Shown here one piece after another: positions 29,565-54,284 of a stretch of 64,000 nt of DNA. The position numbers and the translations under genes were made by a program. Positions within the stretch are counted from its first letter, which is position 1. Every line of letters begins with the position of its first letter. The DNA comes from Stomorhina lunata (lineage: Eukaryota > Arthropoda > Insecta > Diptera > Rhiniidae): NCBI GenBank assembly GCA_933228675.1, contig OW121743.1, positions 12,577,871-12,641,870 of the forward strand. Reading direction: 5' to 3'. The notes below the pieces were generated by a model, which worked only from the letters and a program-made list of their open reading frames with translations, ran no database searches and had not been told where the DNA came from.

Positions 29565-30430
29565 TTACTTACTTAAATGGCCTATATTTACATACAGGGC
29601 CAAGCAAGTTTTAGAATTCCATGCAGATCGATCTTGTGCACATATGCTCCAATTTCGTAGGCCAAGCTTTGAATGATATTCCTTTTCTTGATCTTTCCAT
29701 CGGATTTTCGGATGTCCTCTTTTACGAGTTCCCTCGGTATCGTTTGCTGAAGTATTTTCATCTATCGCACATCATGTCCCAGACAACGCAGCCGCCGGTG
29801 TTTGATGTGTTTTACGATATCGATGTCTGAGTATAACTCAAACTTACTTGGTTCATTTGATGTCGATATTCATTGTTGATGCCGACTGGTTCAAAGATTT
29901 TTTGTAGAATCTTTCTCTCAAAAACTCCAAGAATAGCTTCATCTGCCTGTGCAAGTGGCCAAGGTTCAGCACCATATAGTAACACGGGTTGTATAAGCGT
30001 TTTGTATAGCATAATTTGAGGTCCTATGCTCCACTGGAAGTCAAGGATAACAGAAGAAGCAGAGCTGCATATACTTAGGAGTGTCTTCAACATCACGAAT
30101 TTTCGGGGACAAATTGCAATAACTCCAAAACTAGTTTGCTTGCTTAGGCAAAATAGCTTCTGTTGGCAAGTATGATTCAATGTTTGATTTCGAAACCTAT
30201 GTCATTATTTGTTGACGGCGGTACCAAGGTAAACAAATTCTTTTACAACCTCGAAGATATAGTTCTCAACTATCACATGTGACCCAATTCTTATGGACTG
30301 TCTACTTACAGAAACTGGCAGTTTTGTTTTTGATTCATTGATAGCTAGACCCATTTTATTAGATTCCTTCTCGACACTTGAAAAGGCATCATTTTTGACC
30401 CCATGTCTAAAAAGGGTTAAAATATTGTTT
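29565..30430 (-). pseudogene. RTE-like non-LTR retrotransposon, 3' fragment
   Basis: The minus strand carries diverged C-terminal reverse-transcriptase sequence of the RTE type: residues like YKTLIQPVLLYGAEPWPLAQ, then FERKILQKIFEPVG, NNEYRHQMN and downstream HIKQ-type remnants. It ends in an AAGTAAGTAAAGTAC tail, the short tandem 3' tail also seen on the other copies. Frame breaks are present, and a stretch at about 30080-30150 (ATCACGAATTTTCGGGGACA) resembles the 335-bp satellite, so satellite-like sequence may have been inserted or converted into it. The ORF at 29812-30180 is its longest intact piece. Non-functional. Confidence 0.75.
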
Positions 30431-30714
30431 TTAATGAAAAAGACTTTATCTTAGTGTAAAATAGTTACTTTTAAGTATATTTATTTAAATTCAGTAATAA
30501 ATCAGTAATATTACGTATTTAAAAAATAAAAAAATAAATACAAAAAATCAAATTTTTCATTTTTGCCTCCGCAAAAAAGTGTTAATTTTACCCAATTTTA
30601 AAAACAAAGAACCTGTTTATATTTTCCTAAGTATGGATAATTTTATACCATATAAACATTATTAAAATTGAGCATAAATAAGATTTATGAAGCATTTACT
30701 CAAATTATGAGCAA
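30431..30714. other. Short unassigned stretch
   Basis: Nothing recognised between the RTE fragment and the satellite. Confidence 0.4.
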
Positions 30715-32242
<1,528 letters not shown>

Positions 32243-32813
32243 AATCAGTTTCGCAAAGAGACAGAATCTTGTTCCTCCATTTCAAACTAAATATTGCTAC
32301 TATGGACAAATGTTGCCTATAAGCAACATTGCGTTTTTACAATTTCTGACATATCAATAAGAAATATTTTGAATATCCAGTTGACTTTGTAGGGAATTGT
32401 GACTAACTAACATTTTCCGGTCCCGGAAACTTTGAACAATTAACATAAATTTAAAAATTTTTATAAAACCTTAAAACTAATTTTGGAGCTGCTTTTAATT
32501 TCATTTAAAGCTAATGACACAAATTTTAACAGGTCGTTTTCTTAAGACCCAAAACTTCTAAGATATCTAATTTTGCTGTCTTTTGACAAAGGGAGTTTAA
32601 AAAAATTTTTAATTTATAGTTTATTTTTATTAAATACAACAAAAATGAAATTAATTCTAAAAATTACAACTTAAACTAGAAATATTTTTAAAGAAAAAAA
32701 TCAATGAATTATATACAGAAATTTTTTAAATATAAATAATAAAATAATAACATTTTCATTAAATAAAATAACAAGTAAAATTTATACAAATATAAATAAT
32801 AAAATAAATAAAA
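32243..32813. other. AT-rich DNA downstream of the GMC gene
   Basis: No gene seen. It lies 3' of the minus-strand gene and could include its more distal 3' untranslated region; another AATAAA (minus strand) occurs near 32620. Confidence 0.4.
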
Positions 32814-32819
32814 TTTATT
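32814..32819 (-). promoter_or_regulatory. Candidate polyadenylation signal AATAAA for the GMC gene
   Basis: AATAAA on the minus strand about 195 nt past the GMC stop codon. The surrounding sequence is A/T-only, so chance matches are frequent. Confidence 0.3.
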
Positions 32820-32969
32820 TATAACAAATAGATAACAATAAAAAAATATTGACTAGTTAGTTTTTTCTTCTTCGAATTTTTTTTGTTAAAATTTCAAAAT
32901 TTCTTTTTAATGGAAGCCTTAGGTCTATAAATGTTAACAACTAAAAAAATGGAACATTGAATTTTCAGC

Positions 32970-33050
32970 TTAGCCCTTGCGGCTTAAGGGTCTTACACCC
33001 CAAATTCTTCTTAGCCCTTACGGTTTAAGGGCCGTACACCCCAATCTTCC
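32970..33050 (-). repeat. 41-bp tandem duplication at the 3' end of the GMC coding region
   Basis: Units 32970-33010 and 33011-33050 share TTAGCCCTT, GG-TTAAGGG and TACACCCCAA and differ at about five positions. The upstream unit (in the minus sense) encodes the last ten residues and the stop. The other lies just beyond the stop in a different frame, where it could read LGCKTLKPQG and a stop. Confidence 0.85.
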
Positions 33051-34908
33051 TTAATCATATCAGAAGCTTTTTCTCCTATCGCTATAACGGGAGCATTGGG
33101 ATTACCATTGACAATTGTGGGCATAATACTAGCATCTACAACACGCAAACCCGAAACACCATAAACCCTAAGGCGAGAGTCAACCACAGCTGTGCTATCC
33201 CAACTGGGACCCATTTTACAGGTACCCGTAGGATGATAAATGGTAAAGGTGAATTGTTTAATGCAACAGGCCCAATAGGCGTCACTGTTGAAATCCAAAT
33301 GCCTACACCCAGGCAGGGGAATGTTGTGGAGCCGAGAACCAAATCTTTGGAAGGCCTGGGTGTTGGAGACATTTACAGCCAACTTAATACCCTCCACCAA
33401 AACATCTATGTCTTCTTGATGGGCAAAATAGTTGGGTATAATTTTAGGCTGCTGCTGGGGATTGCGGGAGTTAAGGCGAACCCAACCAGTAGATTTGGGT
33501 CTTAAAAGCAAAGGCAATATGGACCAAGTTTCAGAATTTTGCAAGGGCTTGTATACAGTATTATAGAAGCCATCTCTTAGATTCAAAATCTTGCGTATCT
33601 GCTCTCCGCCATCCGAGTTAATGGAACTGGGACAGAAATGGAATTGTATATCAGGCCAATCTACCTTAGGATCTTGAAATTTGCTATTAAGAAAAGCTAC
33701 ACCCTCTACACCGGTAAATGTCATGGGACCACGTTCTCTTAAAATGTACTCCATAGAAACAGGTATCGTCTGAAAACGATTACGTGTTACCGTCAAAGGA
33801 GCATCGACCACAAAGGTAAGACCTCCCAGACCCACATGATCTTGCAGGTTATTACCCACAGGCAAATCAGATACCACGGGTATGCCCATTTCCTGCAAAT
33901 GCTCCGCAGGTCCTATACCCGAAAGCATGAGAAGTTGTGGTGAGTTTAAGGCTCCAGCGCTGGAGATTACTTCTCTGCGCACAAACACTAAATTTTTGTG
34001 ACCATTCTTCAGATATTCCACACCTGTAGCTCTTTTATTTTGATCCATTATAATGCGTGTGGCCTGGGCATGTAAAACAACATCCAGGTTCTTACGCAAA
34101 CGTACCGGTCTTATAAAAGCCTTGCCGGTACTGCATCTAGAACCCCTTCTAACCGTCGACTGGGTAAGCATAAAGCCCGTTTGTAGTTCACCATTAATAT
34201 CACGATTTTCATAGCCCATCTCCAGGCCGGCTTGCAGAAAAGCTATAGACAAGGGAGTACGCCAGGGGGATTCTTGTACAGTCAAATAGCCACCAGTTTC
34301 GTGATAGGGCGTTTTGGCCAAATAGGGATTGCGTACATCTTCGGATTTGAGAAAGTATTTTAAAATATCTTCATAGCCCCAGCCTGGATTACCCAGAGAT
34401 TCCCAATGGTTGTAGTCATTCTTGGAGCCTCTAACATAAACCATAGCATTAAGAACACTGGAACCCCCCAGAACCTTGCCTCTGGGCCAAAAACAGCGAT
34501 CACCTTTCATGGCCTGGCAATATTGACGAGTAGCTGAGGGTGTAGTTTGATATTTCCAATCCAAGTCGGTAAGTTGTAGATAGCCAGCCAAGGCAGGAAC
34601 ATCGGATATTTCAGTTTCATCTCCACCAGCCTCCAGAAGTAAGACAGTCCAATTTTTGACCTCCGACAAACGATTGGCCACCACGGCACCCGCCGAACCG
34701 CCACCAATCACAACAAAATCATATTGACGCCTGATCTGTAAAATAAGAATATCAGTAACTCTTTTCGTTATAACTCTAGACCAAAACTCACCACTTGAGG
34801 TTCCTGTACTCTATTTTCGGGATCTACGTTTTGATAACGATAGTAATTCATGCCGATCGCCAGTAAGGGTATCATGCCCAGCAAAGAGGTCATTGTACCA
34901 AATGCCAT
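33011..34908 (-). CDS. GMC oxidoreductase (glucose dehydrogenase-like, FAD)
   Basis: Spliced protein of 613 residues: exon 34908-34792 (39 codons), 56-bp intron, exon 34735-33011. The N-terminus has a hydrophobic stretch (about residues 8-20, [14 protein letters not shown]), a likely signal peptide or anchor. Then come the FAD dinucleotide fold IGGGSAG (49-55) with EAGG (74-77), GMC signature 1 beginning [14 protein letters not shown] (about 123), signature 2 [15 protein letters not shown] (about 300), and the C-terminal catalytic region with His540 in [10 protein letters not shown] and Asn584 in NPNAP, the usual His/Asn pair. Length and motif order are those of insect GMC dehydrogenases. These oxidise alcohols or sugars with FAD and are usually secreted or membrane-facing; the substrate cannot be read from sequence. 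In Drosophila many paralogs form a cluster inside a flotillin-2 intron; whether this locus is syntenic cannot be judged here. Start chosen for its A at -3, the signal sequence and the phase-0 splice. It begins 13 nt after the upstream frame's stop. Confidence 0.95.
34736..34791 (-). other. 56-bp intron in the GMC gene
   Basis: Donor GTGAGT at 34791 and acceptor TTATTTTACAG ending at 34736. Phase 0; removing it joins the codons for EPQV to IRRQYDFVV without a break. Typical short dipteran intron length. Confidence 0.92.
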
Positions 34909-34921
34909 TTTTCAGTAATTG

Positions 34922-35734
34922 TCAAATCCAGGGATCTTCTTTTATTTTAGATTTTTGCTTATTAAAGCCGTTGCTTTCCGGGGCACTAGTCGATAAGGGT
35001 GCTTCTGTTAAGATTTTGGGTGTATAATTGCGTATACCTCCCGGCTTGGCCACCTGATACTGGGCCTTGGCCTTTTGATCTTCTTCCAAAATATCCAAAT
35101 AAGATTTTATATACAAATGATGCTCCAAGTAATCCTTTTGCTTTTGTAAAGATTTGCTGGATTTAGTCGAGACTACAGAAGTGGCTCCCCCACTTGCCAC
35201 CGAGGCAGCCGAGGAAAATCTTGAGGGTGTACAGTGACACGATGAATAGTAAATACCACTATCGGTACTCTGAGAGCTTTTACGTTGATATTTCCCCTTC
35301 AAATCCCGATACACAACTTCGGGATTATCAAAGCCACTCGATTGATAGTCGGATGTAGAAGAATGGCTGTCCAGAGATTTACGGGAACCTAATTGAGATT
35401 TGGATATTTTCGCTTTTTCATAGGTTTGCTTGGTCAAATTATATTTCTGTCTTTGTCGATAGTATTCCTCGTCCGTCGAGGAGCCGTTCGAGATACTGGA
35501 AGATGTATAGATTAATTCCTTGTGCTGCTGCTGTTTGTAGCGTTGTTTGGGTATAGAAAAGCTTGAAGAGTTTTTGGATGTTGGGAAATTTGAGGACTGA
35601 TAGTTTTGTTTATCCTGATGGTGCTGATGATGATAGGTTGGTGGTTGCTGTTGCTGCTGTTGTTGTTGAGGAAGAGGTTGCTGTTGTCGTCTAGAAGTGT
35701 TACATTTATTTTGTTGTGATATCTCTTGTCCCAT
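34922..35734 (-). CDS. Unrecognised Gln/Ser-rich protein, first cistron of a possible dicistronic mRNA
   Basis: Intact 270-residue frame. I do not recognise the family. It starts MGQEIS, fitting the N-myristoylation pattern (Gly2, Ser6), with Cys11 nearby as a possible palmitoylation site. Next come a Gln-rich tract (about 17-32) and His-rich HHQHHQ, a long Ser/Thr/Tyr-rich probably disordered middle with STDSGIYYSS, and a charged helix-prone segment (about 196-228, LQKQKDYLEHH...YLDILEEDQKAKAQ). The C-terminus is basic, ending KIKEDPWI. A membrane-tethered adaptor or regulator is a guess only. The single Met is the initiator (A at -3). On the sense strand only two other ATGs occur in 813 nt, one followed at once by a stop, the other opening an 11-codon frame. 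The stop lies 13 nt before the GMC start, in another frame, inside the same exon. Composition differs sharply from the surrounding AT-rich DNA, supporting a real gene. Confidence 0.85.
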   Translation of the reverse strand: MGQEISQQNKCNTSRRQQQPLPQQQQQQQQPPTYHHQHHQDKQNYQSSNFPTSKNSSSFSIPKQRYKQQQHKELIYTSSSISNGSSTDEEYYRQRQKYNLTKQTYEKAKISKSQLGSRKSLDSHSSTSDYQSSGFDNPEVVYRDLKGKYQRKSSQSTDSGIYYSSCHCTPSRFSSAASVASGGATSVVSTKSSKSLQKQKDYLEHHLYIKSYLDILEEDQKAKAQYQVAKPGGIRNYTPKILTEAPLSTSAPESNGFNKQKSKIKEDPWI

Positions 35735-35762
35735 ATTTTATTCGATTGAAATATAGGAAGCT
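35735..35762 (-). promoter_or_regulatory. 5' untranslated sequence and splice acceptor of the dicistronic exon
   Basis: On the minus strand a strong polypyrimidine tract (CTTTCTTTCCCTCTTTTCC) ends in AG at 35762-35761, leaving 26 nt of 5' UTR before ATG at 35734. So at least one non-coding exon should lie upstream. A consensus-like donor (AA then GTGAGA) at 35993 is one candidate, but not the only one. Confidence 0.7.
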
Positions 35763-35845
35763 GGAAAAGAGGGAAAGAAAGATGAATTGTTAGAATATTT
35801 AAAGCAACTTATATGGAATATTATTATGAGGAAAGAAGTTCTTAA

Positions 35846-35950
35846 AAATACATTGTAAAATAAATTATTTTGAAAATCCCTAAGGTATGCTACACAATAT
35901 TGGCTAAAAAGTCTGAGTTTTCAATCGTTATCGAATGCGGCGATTTGCCC
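35846..35950. mobile_element. MITE-like element, end fragment (copy 6)
   Basis: AAATCCCTAAGGTATGCTAC, then AAAAGTCTGAGTTTTCAATC, and ATCGAATGCGGCGATTTGCC match the right half of the family at 6568. If the upstream donor guess is right, it lies in the 5' intron of the dicistronic gene. Confidence 0.6.
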
Positions 35951-36940
35951 AGGTTTGTTTCGGTTAGCGTAGCAGTCTTTTAGTTAGTCTCACTTAGAAT
36001 TTGTTACGAATTTTTTAGTTAACCGCCCCATTGTGCAAAGATCACTACTTTTAATTCTTCCCCTAAATTTCTTGAATGTTTCTGTTGATCTTGTTGTTAT
36101 TCTGTTTATGTCTATAAGCAGATCAACATGTTTCGCTTATTTGCCGTAAAGAGTATAGCCAGATTTTTCTATTTTTTCTACATTCTCTCTCTCTGTTACT
36201 GTTAACTTCAGATAATTTATTTGTACGGCGTATGTGCGAGCGTGTTCTTGATCATGTGAGAATGTATTGGAACATACATGAACTTTCGTAAGCCAAATTG
36301 TTAGCGTAATCAACGACAGCAGCTCTTTCTTAACGTCTGCAGAAAAGGCTAGAAACTCTTTTCTCTACTATTTAAGGCCGATGAACGAATATTGTGAGAA
36401 TAATTTTAATTGAGACGCGTATAAGAGAACAGTATGACTAAGAATATTTGTAAAGCAGTTTTGAGAAGTTTGTTTACAGTTTTTGTGGAAATATATTTAA
36501 AGTAAATAACTCTAAGGTTAATAAAAATATAACTTTGTGAAACCATATAAAAAGTGTTTTGATTTTGTTTTCGGTTATTTGCATAAAGAATTCCTTCTGC
36601 GTTTTTAAAGGAGAAACGTAACAATATCAAGTCCATTGTCATTTAATTTTTCTTGAACAGGATCGTTCAAAAACCTTTGAAACGTTCGATATCTTAGCCT
36701 TATAAGTCCTCTACCATACGACAGAACAGAACAAATGTAAATAATCTATTGAAGTTTAACGACCCCAAAACGGCGTTAATATATCGCACACAGATCGTAT
36801 ACAAAATTCTAATACTCCCAAGTTAAATTTAGCTTTTGTTTCTGATGTTGTGTTTTTTAACGCTTCTTTCATATTTAGAAAAGCTACCTTGGTATACTTT
36901 TTTATGTCGACTGAGTCATCTTAAATTCCACCATGCCATA
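35951..36940. other. Upstream region of the coding locus, no gene seen
   Basis: More mixed base composition than the arrays and no recognised repeat. It should contain the first exon and promoter of the minus-strand locus if those lie in this window; I could not locate a convincing core promoter. Confidence 0.4.
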
Positions 36941-38210
36941 CAGATACAGACAGACACAGACAGACACAGACAGGCACAGACAGGTACAGACAGGCACAGA
37001 CAGGCACAGACAGGCACAGACAGACACAGACAGACACAGACAGACACAGACAGACACAGACAGACACAGACAGACGCAGACAGACACAGACAGACACAGA
37101 CAGACACAGACAGACACAGACAGACACAGACAGACACAGACAGACACAGACAGACACAGACAGACACAGACAGACACAGACAGACACAGACAGACACAGA
37201 CAGACACAGACAGACACAGACAGACACAGACAGACACAGACAGACACAGACAGACACAGACAGACACAGACAGACACAGACAGACACAGACAGACACAGA
37301 CAGACACAGACAGACACAGACAGACACAGACAGACACAGACAGACACAGACAGACACAGACAGACACAGACAGACACAGACAGACACAGACAGACACAGA
37401 CAGACACAGACAGACACAGACAGACACAGACAGACACAGACAGACACAGACAGACACAGACAGACACAGACAGACACAGACAGACACAGACAGACACAGA
37501 CAGACACAGACAGACACAGACAGACACAGACAGACACAGACAGACACAGACAGACACAGACAGACACAGACAGACACAGACAGACACAGACAGACACAGA
37601 CAGACACAGACAGACACAGACAGACACAGACAGACACAGACAGACACAGACAGACACAGACAGACACAGACAGGCACAGACAGACACAGACAGGCACAGA
37701 CAGACACAGACAGACACAGACAGACACAGACAGACACAGACAGACACAGACAGACACAGACAGACACAGACAGACACAGACAGACACAGACAGACACAGA
37801 CAGACACAGACAGACACAGACAGACACAGACAGACACAGACAGACACAGACAGACACAGACAGACACAGACAGACACAGACAGACACAGACAGACACAGA
37901 CAGACACAGACAGACACAGACAGACACAGACAGACACAGACAGACACAGACAGACACAGACAGACACAGACAGACACAGACAGACACAGACAGACACAGA
38001 CAGACACAGACAGACACAGACAGACACAGACAGACACAGACAGACACAGACAGACACAGACAGACACAGACAGACACAGACAGACACAGACAGACACAGA
38101 CAGACACAGACAGACACAGACAGACACAGACAGACACAGACAGACACAGACAGACACAGACAGACACAGATAGACACAGACAGACACAGACAGACACAGA
38201 CAGACACAGA
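36941..38210. repeat. 10-bp minisatellite (CAGACACAGA)n, 127 units
   Basis: Exactly 1270 bp in strict 10-bp register with no indel. Variant units cluster at the left edge (CAGGCACAGA, CAGGTACAGA, CAGATACAGA) with isolated ones at 37071, 37671, 37691 and 38171. Because 10 is not a multiple of 3, each strand shows long open frames ([10 protein letters not shown] repeats; [10 protein letters not shown] repeats) that are artefacts. The right flank belongs to a dispersed repeat whose sibling at 58640-58695 has only a short GTCTGTCTGTC run here. Confidence 0.98.
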
Positions 38211-38395
38211 CAGACAGAGAGACAGCAGACAGACAGCAAGACAGAGACGGACACCGCTCAATCGACAGACGGACACCGCTCAATCGTCTTAGGATTTCAT
38301 AAGGATTCTAAATATATAGCTCCTTTGCGTTTTGATCCAACAAACGGAATGACATTCTCAATATACCTCTATTCTTTTTGATGTTGGGTAGAAAA
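38211..38395 (-). repeat. Dispersed 'TATACCC' repeat fragment flanking the 10-bp array
   Basis: Read on the minus strand: CATCAAAAAGAATAGAGGTA, TATTGAGAATGTCATTCCG, GAATCCTTATGAAATCC, TAAGACGATTGAGC, GTCCGTCTGTC. This is the same order as 58520-58700. The GATTGAGCGGTGTCCGTC segment is duplicated (38240-38290). Confidence 0.75.
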
Positions 38396-53062: not shown

Positions 53063-54284
53063 GGTGGTTAAATTGTAAGGGCCGATGTTGAATGTAAACC
53101 ACACCTAAACGCCAAGTTTTTTCCGAATTTTATTTGACATTTTTCTATTTCAGACTTACTCAATTTGAACCATAGAGAGATACATAATTCAACAACGTGT
53201 TAAAGTTATCCAGACTTATTATGAAAATGGGCGTTCAAATCAAAATGCATATCGTGCACTTCGTGATTTTTTTGGTCAATTTGATCCTCCAAATGTGCGT
53301 ACAATCGCAAAAACCGTGGAAAAATTCGAGCAAACCGGGTCTGTAGAAGATGTGAGAACACCAGTGCATGCTCGTACTGCAGAAAATATTGCTGCTGTTC
53401 GCGATAGTGTGGCTGAAGAGTCGTCCACCTCAACTCGTCGTCGTGCCCAACAATTGCACCTCTCACGCTCGTCGTTGATGAAAATTATGCATAAAGACTT
53501 GCATTTACACGCTTACAAGGTGCAATTGGCTCAAGAACTAAAGCCTCTTGACCATTCCAAACGTCGTGAATGGACAGAATGGTGGCAAGAAATGGCAATA
53601 GTGGATGATCAATTTTCGAAGAAAATCATCTTCAGTTATGAGGCACATTTTCACTTCAGTGGATTCGTCAATAAACAGAATTGCCGCGTTTGGGCGAATG
53701 AGAATCCAAGAGTGATTGTCGAAAAATCAATGCACCCACAAAGAGTGACTGTTTGGTGCGGTTTATGGGCTGGCGGCATCATCGGGCCGTATTTTTTCCA
53801 AAATGAGGCCGGTCAGGCAGTTACTGTGAATGGCGTTCGCTATCGTGAGATGATAACGAACTTTTTATGGCCCGAATTGGAAGATATGAATGTGGACGAT
53901 ATGTGGTTTCAGCAGGACGCTGCCACTTGCCACACAGCTAACGAAACAATGGCTCTTTTGCGCAACAAATTCAATGACCGTGTTATCTTACGTAATGGCG
54001 ATGGCGATGTGGACTTTTTTCTTTGCGGTTATTTGATAAGCCTAAGCCAAGAGCTAAAGGATGACATTAACGGCAAAGAACTAGCATTATGCCACAGGGT
54101 CATTGAAAATTTGGACCATCGGATGGAGGTGTGCCGCCGTGGTCGCCTGCCCATTTGGCCGATATTTTGTTCCATACATAATTGAGTAATACCAATATAT
54201 CATAATAAAATAAAATTACAATAATTTCATAAATAGTTTGTGTTTTATTCAAAATCGACATCGGCCCTTGAAATTTAACCACCC
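53062..54284 (+). mobile_element. Mariner-superfamily element (DD41D-like), complete ends, dead
   Basis: The terminal inverted repeats match for about 28 bp with two mismatched pairs: GGGTGGTTAAATT then AAGGGCCGATGT at the left (53062), and the same sequence complemented at the right (54257-54284). Total 1223 bp, flanked by TA sequence on both sides. It contains one damaged transposase gene filling most of the interior. Confidence 0.9.
53169..54185 (+). pseudogene. Transposase of the DD41D-like mariner element, inactivated
   Basis: One frame is open from 53169 to 54185, but no ATG opens it; an in-frame stop precedes it at 53166 and the expected start is lost. It reads QTYYENGRSNQNAYRALRDF (helix-turn-helix region), KKIIFSYEAHFHFSGF, RVTVWCGLWAGGIIGPYFFQ and MWFQQDAATCHTANETMALL. 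In this family the first catalytic Asp sits in IFSDEAHF; here it is Tyr. The second Asp (QQDAATCH) is intact. Around the third, about ten residues are missing, shortening the second-to-third spacing. A further small deletion follows CGYLISL, and the C-terminus shifts frame after CRRGR. The copy cannot encode an active enzyme. Confidence 0.88.

Follow-up and report, generated by a model that had tools for sequence, protein, structure and literature searches.

A probable dicistronic mRNA in a fly, with a first cistron nearly free of methionine and a GMC oxidoreductase likely translated by leaky scanning

The stoned and Snapin genes of Drosophila are among the closest precedents for the locus analyzed here. 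In the available text of the reports that discuss them, the first cistron is poor in AUG codons and the second is translated via leaky scanning in reporters (PMC11892635, PMC3372440; the source study is Wall, Phillips and Kelly 2005, JBC 280:27670, as cited in PMC11892635, PMC3372440 and PMC4528330). Bicistronic genes are also described in green algae, where leaky scanning was tested in vivo according to the accessible part of PMC11892635. Dicistronic arrangements are not so rare in flies as a sequence-only reading of the present locus had assumed, since 159 dicistronic pairs are reported in D. melanogaster release 6.04, most of which are said, in the sections available, to fail the requirements of scanning (PMC4528330).

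We analyzed a 64-kb stretch of Stomorhina lunata DNA (hereafter the window), in which two complete frames follow each other on the minus strand. The first cistron (34922..35734) encodes 270 amino acids (MGQEISQ...KEDPWI), from an ATG at 35734 to a TGA at 34924-34922, and has no internal methionine. After a spacer of 13 nt (34909..34921), the GMC oxidoreductase starts in a different frame with the ATG at 34908, and the N-terminus encoded by the first part of its coding region (34792..34908) agrees with those of its orthologues. A predicted intron of 56 nt (34736..34791), with donor GTGAGT from 34791 and acceptor TTTTACAG ahead of 34735, separates this part from the remaining coding region to the stop codon (33011..34735). 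Splicing at the predicted sites returns a product of 613 amino acids from two exons. The exon bearing both starts is predicted to open after an acceptor AG at 35762-35761 (35761..35762), with a pyrimidine share of 1.0 and the sequence TTTTCCAG immediately before CTTCC. All splice sites at the locus are sequence-based predictions, and by these the upstream acceptor and the donor at 34791 bracket both start codons within one exon, in agreement with the sequence-only reading, whose frame end, GMC start, strand, frames and 13-nt gap are exact to the base. Since an in-frame TGA sits two codons 5' of the GMC ATG, the GMC frame has no 5' extension inside the exon. No Rfam match was found over 32500-36800.

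This layout resembles that of stoned and Snapin in that two unrelated proteins follow each other in the order of one mRNA, which is predicted here, and in that the first cistron is AUG-poor. The proteins are different ones, however, and at the present locus the exclusion of methionine can be traced over 104 sequences. Moreover, the available text of PMC11892635 describes stoned and Snapin as having first starts that depart from the consensus, whereas by the -3/+4 rule the first start of the window does not count as weak. The green algal genes are alike in their short inter-ORF distance, in the few AUGs before ORF 2 and in the weak context of the remaining ones; they differ in belonging to another kingdom and to other genes, and in the weak start contexts of ORF 1 (accessible part of PMC11892635). 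The lemmingA/lemmingB pair of Drosophila shares the dicistronic arrangement in a fly and represents the opposite case, with three in-frame AUGs in its first cistron and a second cistron that is inefficiently translated in S2 cells, according to the portion of PMC3372440 available.

Both frames are more than chance ORFs, because the first has 50 homologues and the second has full-length matches with up to 91% identity. The 50 homologues of the first protein were returned by a protein search at E <= 1e-3, and those named belong to Sarcophaga, Lucilia, Stomoxys, Teleopsis, tephritids, Drosophila and Episyrphus. An alignment of the remotest of these matches then served as the query of a further search, which returned 107 proteins at E <= 0.01 among the 7,988 candidates with most words in common, the only ones scored, and added Condylostylus, Culex, Sergentomyia and Polypedilum. 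The sole named moth is Diatraea, with a weak match (E = 5e-3). Judged by these matches, the family spans flies, hoverflies, mosquitoes, midges, sandflies and, weakly, a moth. In the 58-row family alignment, the invariant positions include M1, G2, E4, S6, G233, R235, N236, Y237 and the final W-I. The pattern MGxxxS fits N-myristoylation, and Gly2 of the first protein may therefore carry this modification. The AlphaFold2 model has a mean pLDDT of 51.1, with one helix at 193-225 and the rest at low confidence, and thus predicts a largely disordered protein; Ser, Lys, Thr, Gln and Asn account for 48% of the residues in the family sequences. Nothing exceeded the cut-off in a Pfam scan of the first cistron. 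A profile search of the PDB with the family alignment gave two marginal hits in 6hiv (mL80 and mL77, E about 0.002), which we took as low complexity and discarded. Three short relatives of 88-92 amino acids (P0224-P0226) lack the MGQE start.

The orthologue of the first cistron in D. melanogaster is X2JKA0 (P0039), an uncharacterized protein of 281 amino acids that starts with MGQEIS, ends with DPWI and has no internal methionine. It may correspond to FlyBase CG45064, paired with CG45065. We refrained from naming the D. melanogaster pair accordingly: CG45064 is listed among the genes of the trichome network (PMC9331688) and CG45065 is described, for the tracheal system, as a putative ecdysone oxidase (PMC10962836), and the available text of these reports ties neither gene to our sequences nor one gene to the other.

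The GMC protein of the window shares 91% identity over 100% of its length with that of Musca vetustissima. This orthologue (P0051), with which the spliced product of the window aligns over 100%, carries both GMC_oxred_N (PF00732, 187.1 bits) and GMC_oxred_C (PF05199, 142 bits). We used the primers published for GMC-epsilon1 (CG9517) as orthology probes (PMC1891103, in the part available). Both translate into Drosophila orthologues of the window enzyme, as the peptides HWASLGNP and TVTRNRFQ, and these occur in seven and four, respectively, of the nine orthologues checked. By comparison, 15 of the 16 control primers, designed for eight other Drosophila GMC genes, match none of the nine proteins, and the remaining one matches a common GMC motif. 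The presence of the two primer peptides makes it very likely that the enzyme is GMC-epsilon. In the accessible text of PMC1891103, GMC-epsilon1 is a core gene of the GMC cluster within an intron of flotillin-2 (Flo-2), and the passages on it make no mention of the first cistron. No second GMC frame of at least 120 amino acids was found within the 64-kb window.

A ribosome that scans to the GMC start must cross the first cistron without initiating, and we therefore counted the methionines in the first-cistron family. The sample consisted of 110 sequences (109 homologues and the window), of which 104 were counted after leaving out the six without an MG[QN]ExS start. Overall, only two internal methionines are detectable in 21,181 residues (in P0020 and P0221), compared to approximately 302 expected if Met made up the same fraction of all Ile, Leu, Val and Met residues as in 120 GMC proteins. 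The number increases to six when extensions past the usual end are included (one each in P0044, P0045 and P0046, and one in P0213). Ile, Leu and Val together occur 2,773 times in the same 104 sequences. The shortage is present in each third of the protein; in the first third, one Met stands against 673 Ile, Leu and Val. To relate these counts to the phylogeny, we relied on a tree of 102 rows and 173 columns, from which P0009 and P0227 had also been dropped as odd gene models, and simulated sequences from a Met-free root, with the Met frequency set to 0.5, 1 or 2% and 200 runs for each value. The simulated columns with Met were on average 10.7, 19.8 and 33.8, respectively, and never fewer than 4, 8 and 22, as compared to the one observed (the Met of P0020 falls outside the kept columns). 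None of the 600 simulations reached the observed scarcity. Since the simulated columns with Met always exceed the observed one, composition alone is insufficient to explain the exclusion. As a control, some Met-free stretch of 200 residues is found in 9 of the 120 GMC proteins. P0224 and P0225, which are among the six sequences left out because the start motif is missing, each contain a single internal Met.

Both true starts (35734 and 34908) carry A at position -3 together with G at +4. The first start codon is thus not weak by the -3/+4 rule, and its context counts against leaky scanning. Only the T at -1 of the first ATG departs from the fly consensus. Two out-of-frame ATGs lie within the first cistron of the window, both on the minus strand: that at 35703..35705 has T at -3 and is directly followed by TAA, and that at 35419..35421 has C at -3 and opens an ORF of 10 codons. 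Two such ATGs versus 3.6 expected is not a significant shortage (P = 0.16), and we therefore do not use it as support. For the relatives, the bases at -3 were deduced at the protein level from the codon table. The residues that precede the Met in P0020 and P0221, the only exceptions in the core of the family, are Tyr and Phe; they force T at -3, and hence a start context that reads as poor. For the Met in the P0044-P0046 extensions, the preceding Leu forces C or T. The Met of P0224 and P0225 follows a Lys, which forces A at -3, opposite to the trend. Of the three short relatives P0224-P0226, two thus combine A at -3 with an internal Met, and these relatives could represent a lineage where the constraint on Met was lost.

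In four relatives (P0044, P0045, P0046 and P0012), the first frame runs beyond the usual WI end. When shifted by one base, these continuations can encode the N-terminus of the GMC protein, with scores of 54, 45, 44 and 28, respectively; 300 shuffles of each reached no more than 16.2. We also considered P0213 and did not count it, as the signal is weak and six of 300 shuffles were equally good. The overlaps are deduced from protein sequences, and by the same deduction the GMC ATG would follow WI at a distance of 16 nt in P0044-P0046, exactly as in the window. These three proteins also have a Met that would be located 7 nt before the GMC ATG, which is a point against a clean scanning path. P0012 and P0044-P0046 stand apart in the tree, and the group of each also contains a relative with the usual WI end (P0020 and P0171), so that the overlap is derived. 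It occurs in two lineages and argues against reinitiation: a first cistron that finishes inside the GMC frame makes reinitiation a poor account of how the enzyme is translated and favors leaky scanning.

The association of the two frames is detectable also in other species. When 84 first-cistron and 37 GMC entries were compared, five first-cistron entries proved to sit on contigs exactly as long as the contig of a GMC entry, versus a mean of 0.44 and a maximum of 4 at 600 other offsets. Episyrphus, Condylostylus and Teleopsis have first-cistron and GMC proteins from contigs of equal size. Seven joined NCBI gene models, taken up below, place the two frames together as well. In Sergentomyia (P0180) and D. 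madeirensis (P0038), the name of the enzyme was placed on the first protein. The sequence-only reading had proposed two complete, unrelated frames on a probable dicistronic mRNA; our data support this proposal, and given the conservation of the pair, a dicistronic mRNA is the preferred interpretation.

We consider it likely, from the sequence comparisons above, that the locus gives rise to a dicistronic mRNA for a Met-poor, disordered first protein and GMC-epsilon, with the enzyme translated through leaky scanning. A single mRNA would carry the first cistron and then GMC-epsilon; part of the ribosomes would leak past the first start codon, scan the almost AUG-free first cistron and initiate at the GMC ATG. 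The near-absence of internal Met suggests that ribosomes slip past the first start to the enzyme, and the exclusion of Met and the overlapping cistrons of the relatives both point to leaky scanning. We further infer that the exon is spliced at the predicted sites, that a single capped mRNA bears both frames, and that the two products act jointly and would be co-regulated. More tentatively, and with somewhat less than even confidence, the dicistronic mRNA may have been held since the ancestor of mosquitoes and flies, perhaps also of moths. The stretch that codes for a myristoylated, disordered protein would then also serve as an AUG-free leader for GMC-epsilon, with start codons purged along the cistron and the frames overlapping in some lineages, and would set the ratio of membrane-bound partner to enzyme in the same cells.

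Other accounts of the locus have to be weighed against leaky scanning. The enzyme could derive from separate mRNAs, either from a promoter inside the first cistron or through an inner acceptor. A candidate exists at 35497-35496 (35496..35497, minus strand): a CAG with a pyrimidine share of 0.71, the same as that of the acceptor of GMC exon 2, which could yield an mRNA without the first ATG. Because of this match, the earlier claim that any GMC transcript from an upstream promoter must carry the first cistron in full goes too far. Monocistronic forms, moreover, often coexist with dicistronic ones at such loci, as stated in the available text of PMC4528330. Nevertheless, separate mRNAs would leave unexplained the exclusion of Met 5' of the inner site, where the first third of the protein is already depleted, and any longer mRNA would still contain the first cistron; we regard them as unlikely. 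The same dicistronic mRNA might instead be translated by termination at the TGA of the first cistron and reinitiation 13 nt further on. The short gap and the strong second start fit this route. Reinitiation after an ORF of 270 codons is, however, generally held to be inefficient. It would also select for a shortage of AUGs near the first stop (PMC11892635, in the part available), yet the lack of Met extends over all three thirds of the protein, well away from the stop too; and in P0012 and P0044-P0046 the ribosome would have a long way back from the end of the first frame within the GMC frame. Reinitiation therefore seems to us quite improbable.

A fused protein of approximately 700-920 amino acids would form if splicing removed the stop of the first cistron together with the GMC start and joined the two frames. 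Indeed, 7 of the 23 fetched GMC proteins are NCBI models that join both frames (P0056, P0058-P0062 and P0079; six from Drosophila and one from Teleopsis), and five of these seven share a junction from EDP or EEP to VDPE. The remaining two pair the same acceptor with different donors, which is what a program in search of one long frame would do, and the joined models are probably annotation artefacts. By a simple scoring matrix, the window offers 10 GT-AG pairs in frame for the fusion with a donor score of 4 out of 7; no such donor scores above 4, compared to 5 for the true one, and among the acceptors the best one, ahead of 34823, reaches a pyrimidine share of 0.53. A fusion would also lose the conserved WI end and the N-terminus of the enzyme and leave the exclusion of Met unexplained, and both proteins are whole in D. 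grimshawi and others. We consider this outcome very improbable. Finally, Met might be rare simply because the first protein is disordered and of low complexity, so that adjacency would be irrelevant to translation. Its composition and low pLDDT agree with this idea, as do the Met-free stretches in GMC proteins. The plentiful Ile, Leu and Val and the 200 runs at 0.5% Met, none of which fell to the single column observed, make it hardly credible.

The kind of arrangement is already known, as are dicistronic genes in general and the D. melanogaster first protein in UniProt; what is unusual is its evolutionary depth. Our search of the literature, which did not cover FlyBase, found the pair nowhere described as dicistronic; FlyBase may list it. 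If the proposed translation is correct, the locus would offer an unusually clear comparative case of a coding sequence shaped for the translation of a downstream gene, and a protein family without a Pfam model would gain a partner. It would also explain the joined or enzyme-named gene models in public collections of Drosophila and Teleopsis. Leaky scanning would become testable by evolution, as the lineages with an internal Met, with overlapping frames or with lost linkage would act as natural experiments.

The surroundings of the two genes contain several repeats and element-like sequences. An (AT)n repeat of about 53 copies lies downstream of the GMC gene (32136-32242), and further on the minus strand carries ORF pieces that resemble by eye the end of a retroelement (29812-30450), with no match in Pfam. 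On the plus strand, an ORF of 338 amino acids at 53169-54185 contains the Pfam helix-turn-helix DUF4817 and looks transposase-like. Finally, a 10-bp unit (ACAGACACAG on the plus strand) is repeated about 131 times with a 98% match over positions 36940-38253, 1.2 kb upstream of the exon that bears the two cistrons.
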